DNA of 33,302 nt, taken from positions 1-33,302 of the forward strand of contig CAMNFS010000017.1 in NCBI GenBank assembly GCA_946537255.1. The letters run 5' to 3'. The position numbers and the translations under genes are program-made. Of this stretch, positions 3,259 through 26,772 are shown in pieces. The notes under the pieces are model-generated. The model made no database searches, was not told the origin of the DNA, and worked only from the letters and a program-made list of their open reading frames with translations. Position 1 is the stretch's first letter; every line of letters begins with the position of its first letter. The DNA comes from an uncultured Erysipelotrichaceae bacterium (GTDB lineage Bacteria > Bacillota_I > Bacilli_A > Erysipelotrichales > Erysipelotrichaceae).

Positions 3259-3582
3259 AGACTGTCTCCATTCTTCCGCAGAAAACCGCGGTATTCCTGC
3301 TTATATAGTAACGCATGTCCTGCCTTTCGGAAAATGGCAGGACGGTGAAAGAAACCATTTGTATCGCCGGAAAAACGGAACTCCCATCCGAAATGCGACT
3401 GGTTCTGATCGAATGATTGTTTCTGAAAGATGCGGCGGATTATCATACATGCATGGATCCGGGTGATGGAAGCGGAAATCTTTCTGATCGTATATCGTAT
3501 ATGAATGAATGGAAACCGCTTTATGTTTTGTTTACAATAATCAGTATATAACCATGGAATACCGGGTGGTGGAGAAGTGAGT
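3259..3582. other. Divergent intergenic region with inverted repeat
   Basis: This 324-base gap separates the divergent DUF4139 and permease-GGDEF-EAL genes. On the minus strand a TATATA box (3302-3307) could serve the DUF4139 gene. A perfect 8-base inverted repeat, GTCCTGCC (3317-3324) and GGCAGGAC (3336-3343), covers where its -35 would fall and has no U-tract, so it looks more like an operator than a terminator. On the plus side the DNA from about 3520 to 3552 is AT-rich and may hold the promoter of the large signalling gene. I see no convincing gene here. Confidence 0.4.
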
Positions 3583-6500
3583 ATGTCAACTGAAAAACAG
3601 AATCAGAAATATCTTTCACAGCTGGGAGCCTGGGCATTTGCGATCGGAACCAGCGTAGGCTGGGGATCCCTGGTCGTAACCAGCAGCTCCTATCTTGCTC
3701 AGGCAGGTCCGCTCGGCAGTGTGCTCGGACTGGCTGTCGGAACAGTCATCATGTTTATCATGGGCAGGAACTATGCCTATATGATGAAATGCTATCCGGA
3801 AAACGGCGGCATCTATGTCTATGCCCGCGAGGTCTTCGGGTATGATCAGGGCTTTCTTGGCAGCTGGTTTGCGATCATGACCTATCTTGCCATCCTGTGG
3901 GCCAATGTGACTTCTCTGCCGCTGTTTGGAAGAATCTTTCTGGGTTCTTTGTTCAGCTTCGGCAAGCTGTATACGATTTTCGGATATGATGTCTATTTCG
4001 GGGAAGTACTGCTTTCCATCTGCGCTTTGGTATTGTTCAGCTATATCTGCACCCGAAGGAAGAAAGTCCTTGGCAGAATCATGATTGCCTTTGCCGTGAT
4101 CTTCTTCGCATCGGTCAGCATTGTGTTTATCGGATCGCTGTTTCATCAGGGAACCTCCATTGAACCGGTCTTTCTTCCGGATGTATCCGCTTTGAAGCAG
4201 ATCATGTCGATCGCGGTCATCACCCCATGGGCATTCATCGGGTTTGAGAGTATTTCCCATCAGACGGAGGAAATGAACTTCGGCGCGGGGAAATACCGGA
4301 AGCTTCTGACAGTCTCAGTTGTGACGACGGCTCTGCTTTATATCATGATCATTCTTCTTTCCGTCAAGGTGTTTCCGCCTCAGTACAGCTCCTGGCTTGC
4401 GTATATTCAGGATCTGGATCATCTGTCCGGGATTGAAGCCCTGCCGACTTTCTATTCCGCGTACCGGATGTTCGGGAACGCGGGAGTCTTCATGTTCATG
4501 ATGGCGCTTCTTGCCCTGGTCATGAGCAGTGTCATCGGCAATATCACCGCCCTGAGCCGCCTGGTTGCCTCGCTTGGAAAGGATCAGGTCATTCCTTCGA
4601 AATATGCGTTCACGAATCAGGAAAATGTACCGGCAAACGCCATCTGGTTCATCTGCGGCGTTTCCTGTCTGGTTCCGTTTGTCGGCCGTACGGCCATCGG
4701 CTGGATCGTGGATGTCACAACCATCGGAGCGGTACTGATCTATGGGTTTGTGTCGGCCTGCACGATGACCCTGGCAAAGGATATGGGAGAGAAAAAGGAG
4801 ATGTGGTTTGGACGCATCGGCCTTCTGCTCTGTGTGATTCTTGGAGGATGGTATCTGCTTCCGAATCTTATCAGTAAGGGAACCATCGCGAGGGAAACCT
4901 ACTTTCTGTTTATTGTCTGGAGCGCAATTGGGTTTGTTGCCTTTCGGATCATCCTTCAGCGGGACAGAAAGAAGCGGTTCGGCCAGTCCTTTTCCGTCTG
5001 GATTGCGATGCTTACGCTGGTGCTTATGATATCGCTGATCTGGATGCGTCAGTCCATGATCACTTCCTTTGACGCGACGATTGACAGCATCAATACCTAT
5101 TTCCTGAGTCCTTCTTCCGGACTTGACCGGCTGAATGACGCGGCGGCGGTTATCCGGATTATGGAAGGCCTTGAAAATGAAAATGTGAGAACGATGATGA
5201 TTACGATTGCCATGTTCGGCTTTGCGCTGGTCATCATGCTTACGAATCACTCCTATATGAACCGCAGACAGCAGGAGAGCGAAACTGCCGCCAACCGGGA
5301 TCCGATGACCGGTGTCATGAGCAAGCACGCTTATCTTGTGCGGGAGAAGGAAATGGATGCCGAGCTGCAGAGCGGCGGCGTGCGGGATTTTGCGGTTGTG
5401 GTATGTGATGTCAACGGCCTCAAGAAAATCAATGACACGCTGGGTCATAAGGCCGGTGATGAATATATCCGCAAGGCCTGTACCATGATCTGTGATATCT
5501 TCCAGCACAGTCCCGTATTCCGGGTCGGCGGCGATGAATTTGTCGCGATTCTGACGGGAAGGGACTACGTGATCCGGACAGATCTCATGGCCGAACTTCA
5601 TGAGCGTTCCTGCCGGAATATTGAGGCAAAGGGAGCGGTCGTCTCCGGCGGTCTTTCAGAGTATGATGCCTCAAAAGACACCAGTATACATGAGATCTTT
5701 GAGCGCGCGGACGCGGCGATGTATGAAGAGAAAATGCGTCTCAAGGGACTTGGCGCGTCCGTCCGGGAAGATGAGAAGGAAACAGCGCCGCAGCCGCTTC
5801 CGGAACTTGAAGAAGAGATTCCCATTGTCAATGTGCGCAAGCATATTGTCATCGCGGAGGATGAACTCATCAATCAGGAAATTCTCGGCAATGTACTGGA
5901 AAATGACTATGATATTCTCTACGCGTCAAACGGTGAGGAGACCCTGAAGATTCTGCGGGAACATAAGGATGAGATCGCTCTTCTGCTTCTGGATCTGCAG
6001 ATGCCGGTAATGGATGGCATGGAGGTTCTGTCGACCATGAAGAGCGACAGCGAGATCTCCTCCATACCGGTCATTGTCATGACCTCGGATCAGACAGCGG
6101 AGCTTGAGTGTCTGAAGCTTGGCGCGATGGACTTCATTCCCAAACCGTATCCGATGTGGGAGATCGTCAAGGCAAGAGTCAGTAAGGCCGTTGAGCTTTC
6201 TGAAAACCGGGATCTCATTCAGCATACCCAGAGAGACAGTCTGACGGATCTCTTCAATGTGGATTATTTCTTCCGCTATGTCAGCCGCTTTGATCAGACC
6301 TACTGGGATATGCCGATGGATGCGATTGTCCTGGATGTGAATCACTTCCATATGATCAATGAGCGCTATGGCCGCCACTATGGCGATACCGTACTCAGAA
6401 GAATCGGTGAAAGCGTGCGGAAGCTTGCCCGCAAGATCGGCGGAATCGGATGCCGCAGGAGCGGAGATACCTTCCTGATCTACTGCCCGCACCGGGAGGA

Positions 6501-7902
6501 CTACCAGGAGATGCTGGACCGGATTTCCGCGGACATCGTTACGGATGAGGCAAGCGCGAACCGGGTAAGACTGCGCTTTGGTGTCTATTCGGATGTGGAC
6601 AAGAAGATTGATGTGGACCGCCGCTTTGACCGGGCCAAGATCGCTTCCGACAATGTCAGAAACAACTACGCGGTCAATGTCGGCATCTATGATGACGAGA
6701 TGGGCGAAAAGGCCATGTTCCGGGAAAAACTGCTGGAGGATTTCCCTTCTTCGATCGAAAACAACCGCTTCCGGGTGTTCTTCCAGCCCAAGTTCAATAT
6801 CCGGCCAAACACACCGGTGTTGGAAAGCGCGGAAGCACTGGTGCGCTGGGACCATCCGGAGCTTGGCATGATCAGCCCCGCGGTTTTCATCCCGCTGCTG
6901 GAAGAAAACGGCATGATTCTCGAACTCGACAAGTTTGTCTGGAACGAAACCGCTTCGCAGATCCGCAGATGGAAGGATACCTTCGGCTATTCCGTTCCGG
7001 TATCCGTCAATGTCTCACGCGTTGACATGCTGAATCCGAATCTCAAGAGCATCTTCATGGATATCGTGAAGAAAAACGGAATTACAAGCAATGACATCAT
7101 TCTTGAAATAACCGAGTCCGCCTATACCGGCGACAGTGAACAGGTGATTTCCACCGCAAGAGAACTGCGCGGAATGGGCATGGGCTTTCGGATTGAGATG
7201 GATGATTTCGGCACCGGCTATTCTTCGCTGGGAATGCTGACACATCTTCCGATTGATGCCCTGAAGCTGGACATGACGTTCGTGCGCAGCGCCTTTGGAG
7301 AAACAAGGGATGTACGGATGATAGAACTGATCATCGACATCGCCGATTACCTGCATGTTCCGGTTGTGGCAGAAGGAGTCGAGACGGAAGAACAGTATCT
7401 GGTGCTCAAGGCCATGGGATGCGATCTCGTACAGGGGTATTACTTCTCAAAGCCGGTACCTGCTGAGGAATTTGAGAAGTTCCTGAAGGAAAGAAAAGAG
7501 ATCCATACGGAAGTGACACCGGAGGTCCGCAAGACTTTCATGAGCATTTCCAAAGCCCTGAACAGTGACTTTGAACGGATCTATTACGTCGATATGATCA
7601 CCGATCATTATCTTGGCTTCCGTTTCTCACAGGACCGTGGTCTTGAAATCATGCCGGGCGGACCGGACTTCTATACGGAGTTTGAGAAGTCCGTGATTGA
7701 AACCGCTGCGGAAGCGGACCGGGAACGGATGAAAAAAGATGTTTCCAGAGAGGGACTGCAGAAGTGGATGCACGAGGAAGAACTCACGATTCCCTATCAT
7801 AAGATGGATGGAACAGAGATGGTACTGCAGTCCATCCGCAGAAGAAGTACGGATGATCATCATATCGTGATCGGCATCCGGCCGAAAGAAACAGAAGCGT
7901 AA
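3583..7902 (+). CDS. Amino-acid-permease/GGDEF/receiver/GGDEF/EAL fusion signalling protein
   Basis: About 1439 residues. Residues ~10-465 read as a 12-helix APC-type amino acid permease. Two further helices near 485-500 and 545-560 flank an outside loop. Next come a GGDEF domain (~570-725) with intact GGDEF near 651 but no RxxD inhibitory site, and a receiver domain (~755-880) with the phosphoacceptor Asp in LLLDLQMPVMDG near 805. A second GGDEF domain follows (~885-1040), degenerate as RSGDTF. The EAL domain (~1050-1300) keeps EALVR, NVS, EITE, DDFGTG, LKLD, AEGVE and QGYYFSKP. The last ~130 residues are an unassigned PAS-like segment. It could both make and break cyclic-di-GMP under control of a transported or sensed amino acid; that coupling is inference. 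An in-frame GTG at 3577 exists, but GGAG at 3571-3574 is better spaced to ATG 3583. Confidence 0.9.
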   Translation: MSTEKQNQKYLSQLGAWAFAIGTSVGWGSLVVTSSSYLAQAGPLGSVLGLAVGTVIMFIMGRNYAYMMKCYPENGGIYVYAREVFGYDQGFLGSWFAIMTYLAILWANVTSLPLFGRIFLGSLFSFGKLYTIFGYDVYFGEVLLSICALVLFSYICTRRKKVLGRIMIAFAVIFFASVSIVFIGSLFHQGTSIEPVFLPDVSALKQIMSIAVITPWAFIGFESISHQTEEMNFGAGKYRKLLTVSVVTTALLYIMIILLSVKVFPPQYSSWLAYIQDLDHLSGIEALPTFYSAYRMFGNAGVFMFMMALLALVMSSVIGNITALSRLVASLGKDQVIPSKYAFTNQENVPANAIWFICGVSCLVPFVGRTAIGWIVDVTTIGAVLIYGFVSACTMTLAKDMGEKKEMWFGRIGLLLCVILGGWYLLPNLISKGTIARETYFLFIVWSAIGFVAFRIILQRDRKKRFGQSFSVWIAMLTLVLMISLIWMRQSMITSFDATIDSINTYFLSPSSGLDRLNDAAAVIRIMEGLENENVRTMMITIAMFGFALVIMLTNHSYMNRRQQESETAANRDPMTGVMSKHAYLVREKEMDAELQSGGVRDFAVVVCDVNGLKKINDTLGHKAGDEYIRKACTMICDIFQHSPVFRVGGDEFVAILTGRDYVIRTDLMAELHERSCRNIEAKGAVVSGGLSEYDASKDTSIHEIFERADAAMYEEKMRLKGLGASVREDEKETAPQPLPELEEEIPIVNVRKHIVIAEDELINQEILGNVLENDYDILYASNGEETLKILREHKDEIALLLLDLQMPVMDGMEVLSTMKSDSEISSIPVIVMTSDQTAELECLKLGAMDFIPKPYPMWEIVKARVSKAVELSENRDLIQHTQRDSLTDLFNVDYFFRYVSRFDQTYWDMPMDAIVLDVNHFHMINERYGRHYGDTVLRRIGESVRKLARKIGGIGCRRSGDTFLIYCPHREDYQEMLDRISADIVTDEASANRVRLRFGVYSDVDKKIDVDRRFDRAKIASDNVRNNYAVNVGIYDDEMGEKAMFREKLLEDFPSSIENNRFRVFFQPKFNIRPNTPVLESAEALVRWDHPELGMISPAVFIPLLEENGMILELDKFVWNETASQIRRWKDTFGYSVPVSVNVSRVDMLNPNLKSIFMDIVKKNGITSNDIILEITESAYTGDSEQVISTARELRGMGMGFRIEMDDFGTGYSSLGMLTHLPIDALKLDMTFVRSAFGETRDVRMIELIIDIADYLHVPVVAEGVETEEQYLVLKAMGCDLVQGYYFSKPVPAEEFEKFLKERKEIHTEVTPEVRKTFMSISKALNSDFERIYYVDMITDHYLGFRFSQDRGLEIMPGGPDFYTEFEKSVIETAAEADRERMKKDVSREGLQKWMHEEELTIPYHKMDGTEMVLQSIRRRSTDDHHIVIGIRPKETEA

Positions 7903-22825: not shown

Positions 22826-22925
22826 ACAGAGATTGTACCGCACCTGGAGTGGGAAACGGCCTGTCTGAAGTCATTCTTTTGCGGAACACCTCCAATTTTT
22901 TGAGGGCGTGCAAGCGTTTTCAAAT

Positions 22926-22931
22926 TATAAT
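22926..22931 (+). promoter_or_regulatory. -10 box directly before the first GGDEF/EAL gene
   Basis: TATAAT ends nine bases before ATG 22941. A start site about seven bases after it would leave a leader of only about two bases. No Shine-Dalgarno sequence is visible. Confidence 0.5.
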
Positions 22932-22940
22932 AGTCCATGT

Positions 22941-24872
22941 ATGAAGTACAACGTTTACTTCGATCTTTCGGCACTGCTTGTGACAGCGGTGATACTGATT
23001 TCCTCATGGGTGTCCGAATGGATTCCGACCAATAAGAACCGGTTCTACAAATATCTGGTCGGATGTGTTTTTCTTACTGCCGGCATGGATATCATTTCCT
23101 GCCTGATGGAAATGTATCCGCAGCCGTTTGGCTGGTGGGTCCCGCTGCGGAAGGTGATTACCTCCATGTATTTCTGTTTTCATACTGCCACCGGGATGTG
23201 TTATTTCCTCTTTACCCTGGCGCTGGCCAATGTTTCTCCATACAATCTGCGCAGCCGGATGGTTGTGACCCTGCCGCTGAACCTGTGTTTTATCATGACC
23301 GTTCTGAATCTGTTCTTCCCGCTTTATTTCTACTATGACAATGCGGGCGTCTATCATCGCGGTCCTCTGATGCCCCTGCAGTATGCCATCGGTTTCTACT
23401 ATGCTCTGATGGTTTTCTACAGTCTGTACCGCTACCGCCGCTCCATTCCATCTCATCATCGCAGAATCATCTACGGGTTTCTTGTGCTGGTCCTTGTCGG
23501 CATTCTGATTCCGACCTTTCTGCCGGCGTTTCTGGTCGGTGAGTTTCTGAATTCGGTGGCTCTGATTCTGATCTATGTTCTGATAGAGACAGCGGATGAA
23601 ATCAAGGATCAGCGGTTCGGCATTCTCACCCGACAGGCCTATCTGCGCCAGGCGGATCTCAATATTTCCAGCGAAGTCGGCTTCCGCTCGATCTTCGTGC
23701 ATGTGTCAGACATGCATGAAGTGATGAACGGCGACGGGGATCAGATCCAGGCAGAACTCATGGAGAAGATCATTGAATATCTGATGCGCTTTAAAAACGA
23801 GGCATGGATCTGCCTCTGGTCCAATGACTGTCTGGTTCTGGATCTGCGCGGGGTAAGCGAAGCCCGTACCGAGGAAATCATGAATACGATTGTGGAACGC
23901 TTCCGTGATCCCTGGACGAGCCGTGATTTCATTCAGACCATCGGGGTATGTACCTGGCTGGTACGATGCCCGGAGGATGTGAAAACGACCGGTGAACTGG
24001 CGATGAAGATCGCTCTGCTCAAAACCATCGGCATTTCCAGATACCGCGGGATTCTGAAACTCGAGGATGTGGATTTTGAAGAACTCGGCTATGAGAACCG
24101 GATGCTGAGGGAACTGCATACCGCTCTTGAGAAGCAGACCGCGGAAGTGCGGTATGAGCCGGTGAAGGAAATCCGTACCGGCAGGATCATATCCGCCCGC
24201 GCCGGGATTTTCACCCCGGATGGAAACGGCCGCATGATCAGTGTCACGTCCTTTCTGAATCCGTCTGATACAAGGCCGCTGTACTCCAAACTGGATGGCT
24301 ATGTTCTGGATGATGCCGCAAGGAATCTCAGGCTTCTGACAAAGGATACCGGCCTCAACAGCGTCTCGGTGCGGCTTTCCTTCAGTGAGATCACCAAGCT
24401 TCGCTTTGAGTCAGGACTGATGCGGCGCTGTGACCGGTACAACGCCGATTTCCATAAGATCATGCTGAGAGTGTCCGGCGGCACCTACGCCCGGGTTTCC
24501 GAAGACCGCATGAAGGCAATCAGCCGTCTCAGGGATGATGGATGGCAGATTGCGGTCGATGATTTCGGCTATGGGCAGGCATTTCTGAGCCGGATTGCCG
24601 ACTCGGATATTTCCCGGGTGATCGTACACCAGGATGTATGCCGCTCGATTCTGCGGGAGACATCCGGCCAGAAGCTCGGCAAGGGACTGATTGATGCGAT
24701 GCATGCCGTCGGAAAGACCGTTTCCCTGACCGGTATCATCACCCAGGAGGACGCCAACGCGGCCGAAGAGCTCGGAGCGGACTTTATCCTGGGTCCGTTT
24801 GTGGGGGAACCGATGAAAGCGGAGAGGTTTGCGGAATGGGTGAAAGAGAGGGATGAGTATGCAGTACAGTGA
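22941..24872 (+). CDS. Membrane protein with degenerate GGDEF and degenerate EAL domains
   Basis: 643 residues. The first ~220 residues hold about seven hydrophobic segments, like 7TM/histidine-kinase-type sensor regions. A GGDEF-like domain follows (~225-385), but the signature site reads WSNDC. The EAL-like domain (~390-640) has lost nearly all catalytic residues: SARAG for EAL, RVSGG for EITE, DDFGYG for DDFGTG, LTGIIT for AEGVET, LGPFVG for QGYYFS. It is therefore probably a non-enzymatic sensor or c-di-GMP/protein-binding partner. The next gene, with an intact EAL site, overlaps its end. ATG 22941 is preferred over in-frame GTG 22908, since a TATAAT box sits between them. Confidence 0.87.
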   Translation: MKYNVYFDLSALLVTAVILISSWVSEWIPTNKNRFYKYLVGCVFLTAGMDIISCLMEMYPQPFGWWVPLRKVITSMYFCFHTATGMCYFLFTLALANVSPYNLRSRMVVTLPLNLCFIMTVLNLFFPLYFYYDNAGVYHRGPLMPLQYAIGFYYALMVFYSLYRYRRSIPSHHRRIIYGFLVLVLVGILIPTFLPAFLVGEFLNSVALILIYVLIETADEIKDQRFGILTRQAYLRQADLNISSEVGFRSIFVHVSDMHEVMNGDGDQIQAELMEKIIEYLMRFKNEAWICLWSNDCLVLDLRGVSEARTEEIMNTIVERFRDPWTSRDFIQTIGVCTWLVRCPEDVKTTGELAMKIALLKTIGISRYRGILKLEDVDFEELGYENRMLRELHTALEKQTAEVRYEPVKEIRTGRIISARAGIFTPDGNGRMISVTSFLNPSDTRPLYSKLDGYVLDDAARNLRLLTKDTGLNSVSVRLSFSEITKLRFESGLMRRCDRYNADFHKIMLRVSGGTYARVSEDRMKAISRLRDDGWQIAVDDFGYGQAFLSRIADSDISRVIVHQDVCRSILRETSGQKLGKGLIDAMHAVGKTVSLTGIITQEDANAAEELGADFILGPFVGEPMKAERFAEWVKERDEYAVQ

Positions 24873-26772
24873 TCTCTGGCTCTCCATTACCGGTATGGTT
24901 TTCAATCTTCTGCCGTTCTGGATTTTTCTGTATCAGGGCACCGCGAACTTCCGTCAGGTCCGGCGGTTTCTGAGTCTGAACGCTTCGGTGCTGCTGATCA
25001 ATCTGATCGCTGTGATCTATTCCCGGATCATTCCGATCACGGAACAAAATGCCTGGGCTGCGCTGCTTGTTTCTACCGCCTCTTCCCTTGCGGTCACGGC
25101 GGTTCCGTATTTTGTCTATGCCTATATCTACAGTCTTTTCTACTATGATGACAGCGGCCATACCTATTCCATAAAGGCGGTTGTCGGCCTTGCTGTTTCA
25201 CTGGCCGCGGTTATTCTGTTCGGGCCGGAAATCGTTCTGGAACATCGGTCCCTGGTGCTGAATGGAATGAAGGGAACCCTGCTTCTGATCATTCCGGCGC
25301 TGTATTTTCTTTCGATCAGCGTCGCGGAGGGAATCCGCCATGAAAGTTCTCTGAACCGAAGTCACATCCGGGCTTTGCGGATCATGCTGTTTCTGTGCGT
25401 GGTTTCGGTTGTGGTATTCAAAATACTGCGGAAGGTTTCCGTCTATGGATTTCTGCTCACGCTGGTTCCGATCCTTGCCCAGTATACGATGCAGGGAAAG
25501 GGCACGCTCATTGATCCGGTAACCGGTCTGCGCTCCCGCAACGCGTGGCATATCAGTATGACAACCCGCATGCAGGGAAAGAAGGCTTTCCGGGTCATTC
25601 TGATTCATATACCGGATCTTTCCGCGATTGCCGCCTCGCTTGATGAGACCAATGCCAGATCCCTGATGGGACGGGTGGCGGAAATCCTGACCGGCATTGC
25701 CAAAAACTGTCCGGTGTTCCGGATCGGGGATGACTGCTTCGCGATTCTGGAAAATGAAGTCGATGAGCGGGCAGCCAATGAGATGGAGATTGATCTTGCC
25801 TCGCGCTTCCGCTCGCCGCTTTACGCAGGCGGAGAACAGAAGCGGATTCATGTTCTCGCCAGTACGATCAGCTATCCGGACGATGTCAGGAATATGGAGG
25901 ATCTGGATATCCTGACCGAGATGCTCGATGACCATGCGAGTAAGGTCCGCGAGAGTGAAGAAGTGATGATCCATCTGGATCTTGAAAAGGAAAAAGAGAT
26001 GCGCTCAGCGGTTCACGCGGTCAGCTCCGCGCTTCTCAGCGGGCGGCTTGAGGTGTTCTATCAGCCGATCATCAATCTGAACAACGGCAGATTTGAGTCC
26101 GCGGAGGCTCTGATCCGGATGAAGGATGAAAAGGGCAGCTATGTCAGCCCTGGCAGCTTCATACCGGCAGCCGAGCGCAGCGGCATTATTGTCCGGATCG
26201 GCAGGTTTGTTCTCGATGAGGTATGCCGGCTGATGGAGGAAGAACATCTCAGAGATCTGGGTGTTCATTATGTTGAAGTCAATCTGTCCGTGGAGGAATC
26301 CATTCAGGAAAACATCACGGATGTGATGCGCCGGATCATGGAAACGCATCATACCGATCCGTCCGCCCTGAATATCGAGGTGACGGAAACCGCCAATGAA
26401 ACAGCGAGTGAGCTGATGTTCCGGAATATTGAAATGATTCACAATGATCTGGGTCTGGAGCTTTCTCTGGATGATTTCGGTACCGGCTATTCGAATCTGT
26501 CCCGGATGCTTTCCATGCCCGTCAGTATCATCAAGTTTGACCGTTCCCTGCTTCTCAAGGCGTTTGAGACAGAAAAGGGCCGCATCATGTTCGAGCGGCT
26601 CGCCGGGATGGTTCACGCCGTGGGCAGAAGAATAGTGTGTGAGGGCGTGGAAACCGCAGAACAGGCGGAGTTTGTAAAGGCCAACCGGATTGAATACATA
26701 CAGGGGTTCTATTATGCCCGGCCGATGCCCGCGGCTTCCTATGTGGAATTTCTCAAGGAACATGCCGCGTGA
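24859..26772 (+). CDS. Membrane GGDEF-EAL protein, probable c-di-GMP phosphodiesterase
   Basis: 637 residues. About seven membrane segments occupy residues 1-~210. A GGDEF domain (~215-380) is degenerate (RIGDDCF) and probably not a cyclase, but may still bind GTP. The EAL domain (~385-635) is intact: YQPI, AEALIRM, VNLSVEE, EVTETA, LDDFGTGYSNL, IKFDRS, CEGVETAEQ and IQGFYYARPM. It should hydrolyse cyclic-di-GMP. An in-frame ATG lies at 24853, but GAGAGGG ends at 24852, so ATG 24859 has better spacing. Its start overlaps the preceding gene by 14 bases, indicating translational coupling of the apparently dead sensor and the active enzyme. Confidence 0.9.
   Translation: MQYSDLWLSITGMVFNLLPFWIFLYQGTANFRQVRRFLSLNASVLLINLIAVIYSRIIPITEQNAWAALLVSTASSLAVTAVPYFVYAYIYSLFYYDDSGHTYSIKAVVGLAVSLAAVILFGPEIVLEHRSLVLNGMKGTLLLIIPALYFLSISVAEGIRHESSLNRSHIRALRIMLFLCVVSVVVFKILRKVSVYGFLLTLVPILAQYTMQGKGTLIDPVTGLRSRNAWHISMTTRMQGKKAFRVILIHIPDLSAIAASLDETNARSLMGRVAEILTGIAKNCPVFRIGDDCFAILENEVDERAANEMEIDLASRFRSPLYAGGEQKRIHVLASTISYPDDVRNMEDLDILTEMLDDHASKVRESEEVMIHLDLEKEKEMRSAVHAVSSALLSGRLEVFYQPIINLNNGRFESAEALIRMKDEKGSYVSPGSFIPAAERSGIIVRIGRFVLDEVCRLMEEEHLRDLGVHYVEVNLSVEESIQENITDVMRRIMETHHTDPSALNIEVTETANETASELMFRNIEMIHNDLGLELSLDDFGTGYSNLSRMLSMPVSIIKFDRSLLLKAFETEKGRIMFERLAGMVHAVGRRIVCEGVETAEQAEFVKANRIEYIQGFYYARPMPAASYVEFLKEHAA

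Follow-up and report, generated by a model that had tools for sequence, protein, structure and literature searches.

Gene organization

The window analysed here is a stretch of 33,302 nucleotides from an uncultured Erysipelotrichaceae bacterium (GenBank assembly GCA_946537255.1, contig CAMNFS010000017.1, forward strand). It contains a 1439-codon gene whose predicted product joins an amino acid permease-like membrane domain to enzymes of cyclic di-GMP (c-di-GMP) turnover. The gene is a single open reading frame (ORF) on the + strand, starting with an ATG at 3583 and ending with a stop codon at 7900-7902. A first-pass annotation, made from the letters of the sequence, described one protein with a permease-like domain, an intact GGDEF, a receiver, a degenerate GGDEF and an EAL domain. 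A Pfam scan of the protein, in which matches were counted above the curated cut-offs, agrees with this description. In one frame, it places AA_permease_2 (residues 11-419, E-value: 1.2e-27), two GGDEF domains (best 570-718), Response_reg (755-864) and EAL (1053-1291). The motifs named at that time (a phosphoacceptor Asp, here D804, the sequence RSGDTF and a conserved EAL) are all present and in the order given. Two parts had been missed: a pair of additional transmembrane helices (TM13 and TM14) with a stalk (residues 471-571) and a C-terminal domain (approximately 1300-1439). A two-component reading, with the permease as a mere neighbour, was rejected because everything lies in a single frame. 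The features are as follows.

3571-3574, + strand: Shine-Dalgarno-like GGAG upstream of the ATG at 3583 (read directly)
3583-7902, + strand: whole gene, 1439 residues, APC permease, TM13/TM14 stalk, GGDEF1, REC, degenerate GGDEF2, EAL, C-terminal domain (one uninterrupted ORF, Pfam)
3598-4992, + strand: APC permease domain, residues 6-470, 12 TM helices, LeuT-type fold (Pfam AA_permease_2, AlphaFold2 model)
4993-5106, + strand: helix 471-508, the additional TM13, extending beyond the membrane to the outside (AlphaFold2 model)
5128-5295, + strand: helix 516-571, TM14 prolonged into the cytoplasm as a stalk up to GGDEF1 (AlphaFold2 model, stalk-length alignment)
5290-5736, + strand: GGDEF1, intact diguanylate cyclase domain without RxxD, GGDEF motif at 5527-5541 (Pfam, alignments)
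5845-6174, + strand: receiver domain, phosphoacceptor D804 codon at 5992-5994 (Pfam, alignment)
6229-6645, + strand: GGDEF2, catalytically degenerate, SGDTF at 6460-6474 (domain search, alignments)
6739-7455, + strand: EAL phosphodiesterase domain with complete catalytic residues (Pfam, alignment)
7483-7899, + strand: predicted C-terminal domain of approximately 140 residues, no Pfam name (comparison with relatives, models)

A promoter scan upstream of the gene gave a single weak match at 3510-3538 that is indistinguishable from chance, and an Rfam search of the window gave no match.

Permease domain

A match to the APC family had been set beforehand as the check on the permease assignment, and the domain scores 97.4 bits against AA_permease_2 (cut-off 27). 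In the AlphaFold2 model (predicted local distance difference test [pLDDT] 88.9), residues 6-470 superpose on AdiC with a Z-score of 41.9 and a root-mean-square deviation of 3.1 Å over 421 aligned residues. Structure comparison places the nearest folds of the membrane part in APC/CCC, and Pfam gives only AA_permease families for this part, an SLC5 (SSF) domain being absent. No named NCBIfam transporter subfamily was reached. The best match is to the general transporter model TIGR00909 (52.6 bits against a cut-off of 556.8; one free-standing relative scores 137.7), so no substrate can be assigned to the permease.

Conservation was followed across 74 fused homologues. With helix borders placed by hand, mean entropy is lowest in TM3 (0.68 bits), TM10 (0.72), TM1 (0.75) and TM6 (0.93), which together make up the ligand site of proteins with this fold; TM4, TM5, TM9 and TM11 have values of 1.6-2.05. 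W27, W106, N108, W216, E222, W374 and D377 are nearly invariant, and the TM6 motif PWAFIGFE is kept in practically all 74. The spacing from W216 to E222 equals that between the AdiC residues which we take to be W202 and E208. In TM1, G-W-G stands where GkApcT has G-T-G, placing an unusual Trp in the unwound segment of the substrate site. GWG was rejected as a hallmark of the fused group, as it is shared by most free-standing relatives. The position of the GkApcT TM5 lysine (K191, counted along the alignment) is hydrophobic or small in 74/74 homologues, none of which has a charged residue in the TM5 core (169-183). This lack of charge argues against lysine-type proton-coupled uptake and would fit an exchanger or a pure receptor. 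The lysine is also absent from all free-standing relatives shown, so its loss is by itself no evidence of conversion to a receptor. Fused and free-standing proteins differ in TM3 (LWANATS versus VPLNAT), TM6 (GFESISH versus GFDTIPQ) and also TM10. Judged from these alignments, the predicted ligand pocket is under strong constraint but unlike that of any named transporter.

Transmembrane hairpin and stalk

After the permease fold, residues 471-508 form a long helix in the model; a turn follows, and then a second helix of 56 residues (516-571) runs directly into GGDEF1. TM13 was not found in the free-standing relatives, which are 435-523 residues long. Counted from N555, where TM14 ends, to D573 in the motif DPMTG, the stalk measures 18 residues in 28/74 homologues and 25 in 46/74, with no other value, and these two lengths differ by one heptad. 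The extracellular stretch from W487 to N555 is variable in the same alignment (58 to 70 residues). A second set of 11 further direct fusions has a length of 25 in nine proteins, 18 in one and 21 in one. A stricter rule, in which the full fusion would have an 18-residue stalk and the short form a 25-residue stalk, was rejected (8/74 show the opposite). Unlike the direct fusions, two proteins, at loci L178 and L196, have the GGDEF domain separated from the membrane part by other sequence of approximately 450 residues.

Stalks of this kind have precedents. Rec-GGDEF cyclases have coiled-coil linkers whose length before the DxLT motif changes in seven-residue steps and which switch the enzyme by a change of register (PMC8041772). 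The authors of that work suggested the same register control for cyclases with transmembrane inputs (PMC8041772). GGDEF1 shows the same quantised linker before its DxMT motif in every one of the 74 homologues and, with one exception, throughout the second set. A570, at position -3 from this motif, is Ala in 68/74, and position -3 is the switchable contact singled out for the Rec-GGDEF enzymes (PMC8041772). Permeases fused to a histidine kinase have the same TM13/TM14, and their sequence between TM14 and the DHp histidine aligns gap-free in 25 further proteins and in most of the earlier ones. Because the stalk length is restricted, the permease and GGDEF1 may be mechanically coupled; the restriction is the best evidence for such coupling and no proof of a signal.

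Cyclase, receiver and phosphodiesterase domains

GGDEF1 has the motif VFRVGGDEF (GGDEF at 649-653) and the metal-binding Asp D609, which are invariant in the 27 full-length relatives aligned. The absence of an RxxD inhibitory site (I-site), claimed earlier for the window protein, proves to be a trait of the whole family: no RxxD precedes the motif in this protein or in any of 72 homologues with a readable motif, and HSP occupies the region in 61/72. This form of product inhibition is thus predicted not to restrain GGDEF1. The motif is AGDEL or AGEEL in four homologues and of the EGDEL type in one, so activity may differ among members.

The receiver has its full set of residues (E759/D760, D804, T834 and K854), with D804 and K854 invariant in 27/27. 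GGDEF2 has the motif CRRSGDTF (SGDTF at 960-964), which is degenerate in all 27 full-length relatives. Its D918, N926 and D962 are kept in 27/27, as expected of a nucleotide-binding regulatory domain, and the nearest fold to the GGDEF2-EAL half is the GTP-bound GGDEF-EAL of RmcA (best match 5m3c). All EAL residues considered (E1084, N1143, E1175, D1207, D1208, K1228, E1264, E1267 and Q1284) are present and invariant in 27/27. The C-terminal domain occurs in a subset of relatives. Distant relatives of this domain are found inside neighbouring hybrid kinases and GGDEF-EAL proteins (loci L086, L088, L095, L100, L107 and L117).

Relatives and phylogeny

To collect relatives, an alignment of 14 fused permeases was run once against bacterial and archaeal genomes, and the best 80 of at least 588 candidates were kept. 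The permease ORFs of these 80 include 46 with the order permease-stalk-GGDEF (and two more with a doubled linker match) and 27 with the order permease-stalk-GGDEF-REC-GGDEF2-EAL, with or without the C-terminal domain; a few end in a histidine kinase and receiver. Counting the window, both halves share one chain at 28 loci. In at least 14 loci (counted by eye from the gene listing), a same-strand REC-GGDEF2-EAL gene directly adjoins the permease-GGDEF gene, and hybrid histidine kinases are common neighbours of permease-GGDEF loci. From these arrangements, the window protein is read as the one-gene version of a two-gene module. In many permease-GGDEF proteins of 730-790 residues, no input domain other than the permease is seen. 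Locus L137 (1559-11691) carries three successive permease-fused genes, encoding a permease-kinase-REC-REC protein, a full c-di-GMP fusion and a permease-GGDEF protein. At locus L106 (5261-8917), a full fusion is apparently broken, a permease ORF and a stalk-GGDEF-REC-GGDEF-EAL ORF being separated by a stop or frame change; this interruption could be real or an assembly error.

A quick maximum-likelihood tree was built from 105 permease domains (82 fused and 23 free-standing), with the root set on the free-standing rows, some of which have long branches. The 82 fused permeases form one clade apart from the 23 free-standing relatives (Shimodaira-Hasegawa-like approximate likelihood ratio test [SH-aLRT] 99), and one change of state accounts for the split. 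Kinase-fused members are found both at the base of the clade and within the cyclase-fused group (at least three changes), and this scatter indicates that outputs, GGDEF or histidine kinase, have been exchanged. The full fusion changes four times on the tree, which is consistent with one-gene and two-gene forms having repeatedly arisen from each other by fusion or splitting, and the stalk length switches only twice.

The organisms named belong to Bacillota, Actinomycetota, Chloroflexota, Spirochaetota and Thermodesulfobacteriota, the last represented by one small contig of a metagenome-assembled genome (MAG) that may be misbinned. Record titles of the best 80 refer mostly to the gut or rumen of goat, sheep, roe deer, red deer, yak and water buffalo, or bear rumen-genome codes, and none refers to a human source. 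As these loci were chosen by similarity to a ruminant-gut sequence, the link to this habitat is suggestive only. Isolates among the relatives include Lachnospiraceae AC2029 and AD3010. Occurrence at strict E-values is patchy: 29/397 genomes in the family of AC2029, 24/400 in the family of a Ruminococcaceae MAG and 12/394 in the order of a Treponema MAG, with a few of the matches in these counts being of free-standing length. Overall, this looks like a large family of single origin in ruminant-gut bacteria, resembling transporters turned into sensors.

c-di-GMP context in the genome of the window

The genome to which the window belongs (2.44 Mb in 129 contigs) has 38 GGDEF and 20 EAL matches, and is predicted on this basis to encode a dense c-di-GMP network. 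Neither c-di-GMP-I nor c-di-GMP-II riboswitches were matched in this genome, but the control genomes gave none either, and nothing is concluded from this. Three AA_permease_2 proteins were found and all are fused to signalling domains: the protein described here, a 741-residue permease-GGDEF and a 1144-residue permease-kinase-receiver. The gene for the last of these lies at locus L068 (contig C1, 2861-11063), followed by a REC-GGDEF-EAL gene, a receiver ORF and a GGDEF gene; this array is probably a complete phosphorelay to c-di-GMP. The window itself has a second c-di-GMP locus at 22908-26772 on the + strand, where two overlapping tandem genes each encode an EAL domain. One product has 654 residues and ends in a weak EAL, and the other has 639 residues with a weak GGDEF and an EAL.

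Proposed model

Four things are observed: the domain make-up, the conservation of catalytic residues, one clade of fused permeases whose outputs are swappable, and the restricted stalk length. The reading favoured here, at a probability of about 0.6, is that the APC-fold permease acts as a transceptor or receptor, with the stalk as the means by which it switches GGDEF1, and that the phosphodiesterase half answers mainly to the receiver. The TM1/TM3/TM6/TM10 pocket would bind a small extracellular or cytosolic solute, which is probably an amino acid or a compound akin to one. The TM13-TM14 hairpin would relay the outward or inward conformation to the parallel coiled coil of a dimer, and a change of register in this coil would decide whether two GGDEF1 domains meet and make c-di-GMP. 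REC-GGDEF2-EAL would be a separate input/output unit in which phosphorylation of D804 by a histidine kinase sets the EAL phosphodiesterase, and GTP bound to the dead GGDEF2 may set it as well. Fusion would then give one bifunctional enzyme, with a synthesis arm that follows the permease and a hydrolysis arm that follows mainly the phosphorelay. Whether the ligand would raise or lower c-di-GMP cannot be told.

A broader proposal is made more tentatively and is put somewhat short of even odds. The permease would have been converted once into a dedicated, perhaps non-transporting, receptor module (12 TM helices plus the TM13/TM14 coiled-coil stalk). This module would attach to either diguanylate cyclases or histidine kinases and would have spread over five phyla of ruminant-gut bacteria. 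The version in the window would have been further fused to its own phosphodiesterase branch.

Several points weigh against the favoured reading. The heptad step rests on two events on the tree together with long constancy, and a stalk of fixed length could merely hold a dimer. Of 85 direct permease-GGDEF fusions, only the one at locus L193, with its 21-residue stalk, departs from the 18/25 rule. No PilZ match was found in the genome of the window, so no downstream target is indicated, and no histidine kinase gene lies beside the gene, leaving the receiver without an obvious partner. In the best-known protein of comparable design, CbrA, signalling does not need the fused transporter, and histidine leaves the kinase activities unchanged (PMC7096432).

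Two alternatives draw on the same CbrA results, and both are judged unlikely. In the first, the protein would be a working transporter regulated by its fused enzymes, with local c-di-GMP or the receiver gating transport. The APC fold and ligand helices are intact, as this would require, and the SLC5 domain of CbrA transports histidine without a measured effect on kinase activity (PMC7096432). However, the presence of the same permease-stalk unit on histidine kinases and on cyclases is better explained by an input that serves several outputs, the stalk belongs to the type by which GGDEF dimers are driven, and the proton-coupling TM5 lysine of GkApcT is missing from all 74 homologues. In the second, which has a similarly low probability, the permease would be mainly a membrane anchor and dimerisation platform, and signals would enter by the receiver, the C-terminal domain or GGDEF2. 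The receiver and the degenerate GGDEF are ready inputs, and signalling by CbrA survives the loss of its SLC5 domain (PMC7096432), but twelve helices with an almost invariant predicted pocket across five phyla would be costly for an anchor, and the shorter permease-GGDEF proteins often show no other input domain.

The first-pass annotation had suggested that the permease reports to both enzymes. Its cyclase part is retained in the switching model, by inference from the stalk; its phosphodiesterase part is not. Amino acid flux as the thing reported, also suggested there, is at most a possibility, given the unusual Trp of TM1, the absent TM5 lysine and the failure of histidine to alter the kinase activities of CbrA (PMC7096432). 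Conformational change travelling the whole chain to both GGDEF1 and EAL is considered improbable, more so than either alternative above. The two halves do share one chain in the window and its full-length relatives, but the separate REC-GGDEF2-EAL genes adjoining permease-GGDEF genes imply that the phosphodiesterase half can work alone, with the receiver as its own input. Moreover, the link between GGDEF1 and the receiver (residues approximately 726-750) is disordered in the model (pLDDT approximately 30-45), unlike the rigid stalk, so tight mechanical coupling from the permease to EAL is not indicated. Finally, a false join of neighbouring genes by assembly or sequencing error, the other refuting condition set beforehand, for which the two-gene arrangement of relatives offers some support, is excluded by the same single-gene order in 27 of the 80 loci, which come from independent assemblies including the isolate Lachnospiraceae bacterium AC2029, and by 55-66% identity with homologues along the GGDEF1-to-end half.

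The family bears on several questions. Direct wiring of a transporter fold to a signalling output is known for very few proteins of bacteria, and only a minority of c-di-GMP enzymes have a known input; the family offers a candidate input. It is widespread and deeply conserved, with hundreds of candidates, one input on two kinds of output, a tunable stalk and natural split and fused versions, and it makes testable how a cell reads the conformational cycle of a transporter. It also points to a means by which the attachment or motility of gut bacteria could be linked to small nutrients.

Comparison with known systems

The closest parallels in design are the SLC5-STAC histidine kinases CbrA, CrbS and RpuS, in which a LeuT-fold transporter and signalling domains share one chain and are linked to nutrients. 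CbrA transports histidine (PMC7096432, PMC13022988). The window protein differs in having an APC rather than an SLC5 domain and c-di-GMP enzymes rather than a kinase as output. Proteins of the CbrA type also have a cytoplasmic STAC domain, whereas no STAC match was found by Pfam after the permease, where the model has the TM13/TM14 hairpin leading straight into a coiled coil as a continuous helix. Ks-Amt5 is likewise a transporter fold turned receptor with a fused output, and both its loss of transport and the control of its kinase by ligand have been demonstrated (PMC5764959). Its fold is the Amt trimer, its output is a kinase and c-di-GMP is not involved.

Among c-di-GMP enzymes, the GGDEF2-EAL half has the same fold as those of RmcA (PA0575), MorA and DosP. 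In RmcA, c-di-GMP is tied to L-arginine, and the GGDEF-EAL part works as a GTP-dependent phosphodiesterase (PMC9028604). However, RmcA senses arginine by a periplasmic Venus-flytrap domain and lacks an additional, active GGDEF carried by a permease stalk. The Rec-GGDEF proteins DgcR and WspR resemble the window protein in the coiled-coil linker to GGDEF, with its seven-step lengths before DxLT (PMC8041772), but their input is a receiver instead of an APC permease acting through a transmembrane helix. Amino acid sensing in c-di-GMP signalling is known for Venus-flytrap and dCACHE domains (PMC8846402, PMC9028604), and the main text of a review census of c-di-GMP stimuli and receptors lists no permease or symporter input (PMC8846402).

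The membrane domain shares its fold with AdiC, GkApcT and SLC7 transporters. It differs from these in its low identity (approximately 15-17%), the absent TM5 lysine, GWG in TM1, two additional TM helices and the signalling domains. In eukaryotes, amino acid transceptors such as yeast Gap1 also use an amino acid permease fold as a nutrient receptor (PMC11109136), but they have no fused output domain. According to that paper, transceptors in the strict sense had been reported only from eukaryotes before the work it describes (PMC11109136); the window protein has the transporter fold and signalling output in one chain that would be looked for in a bacterial one. No description of an APC permease fused to GGDEF or a histidine kinase was found in open-licence PubMed Central papers, subscription papers and database-only annotations lying outside the search. 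The principle of a transporter fold joined to a signalling output is already known from CbrA and Ks-Amt5, and the APC version with c-di-GMP enzymes appears to be new.

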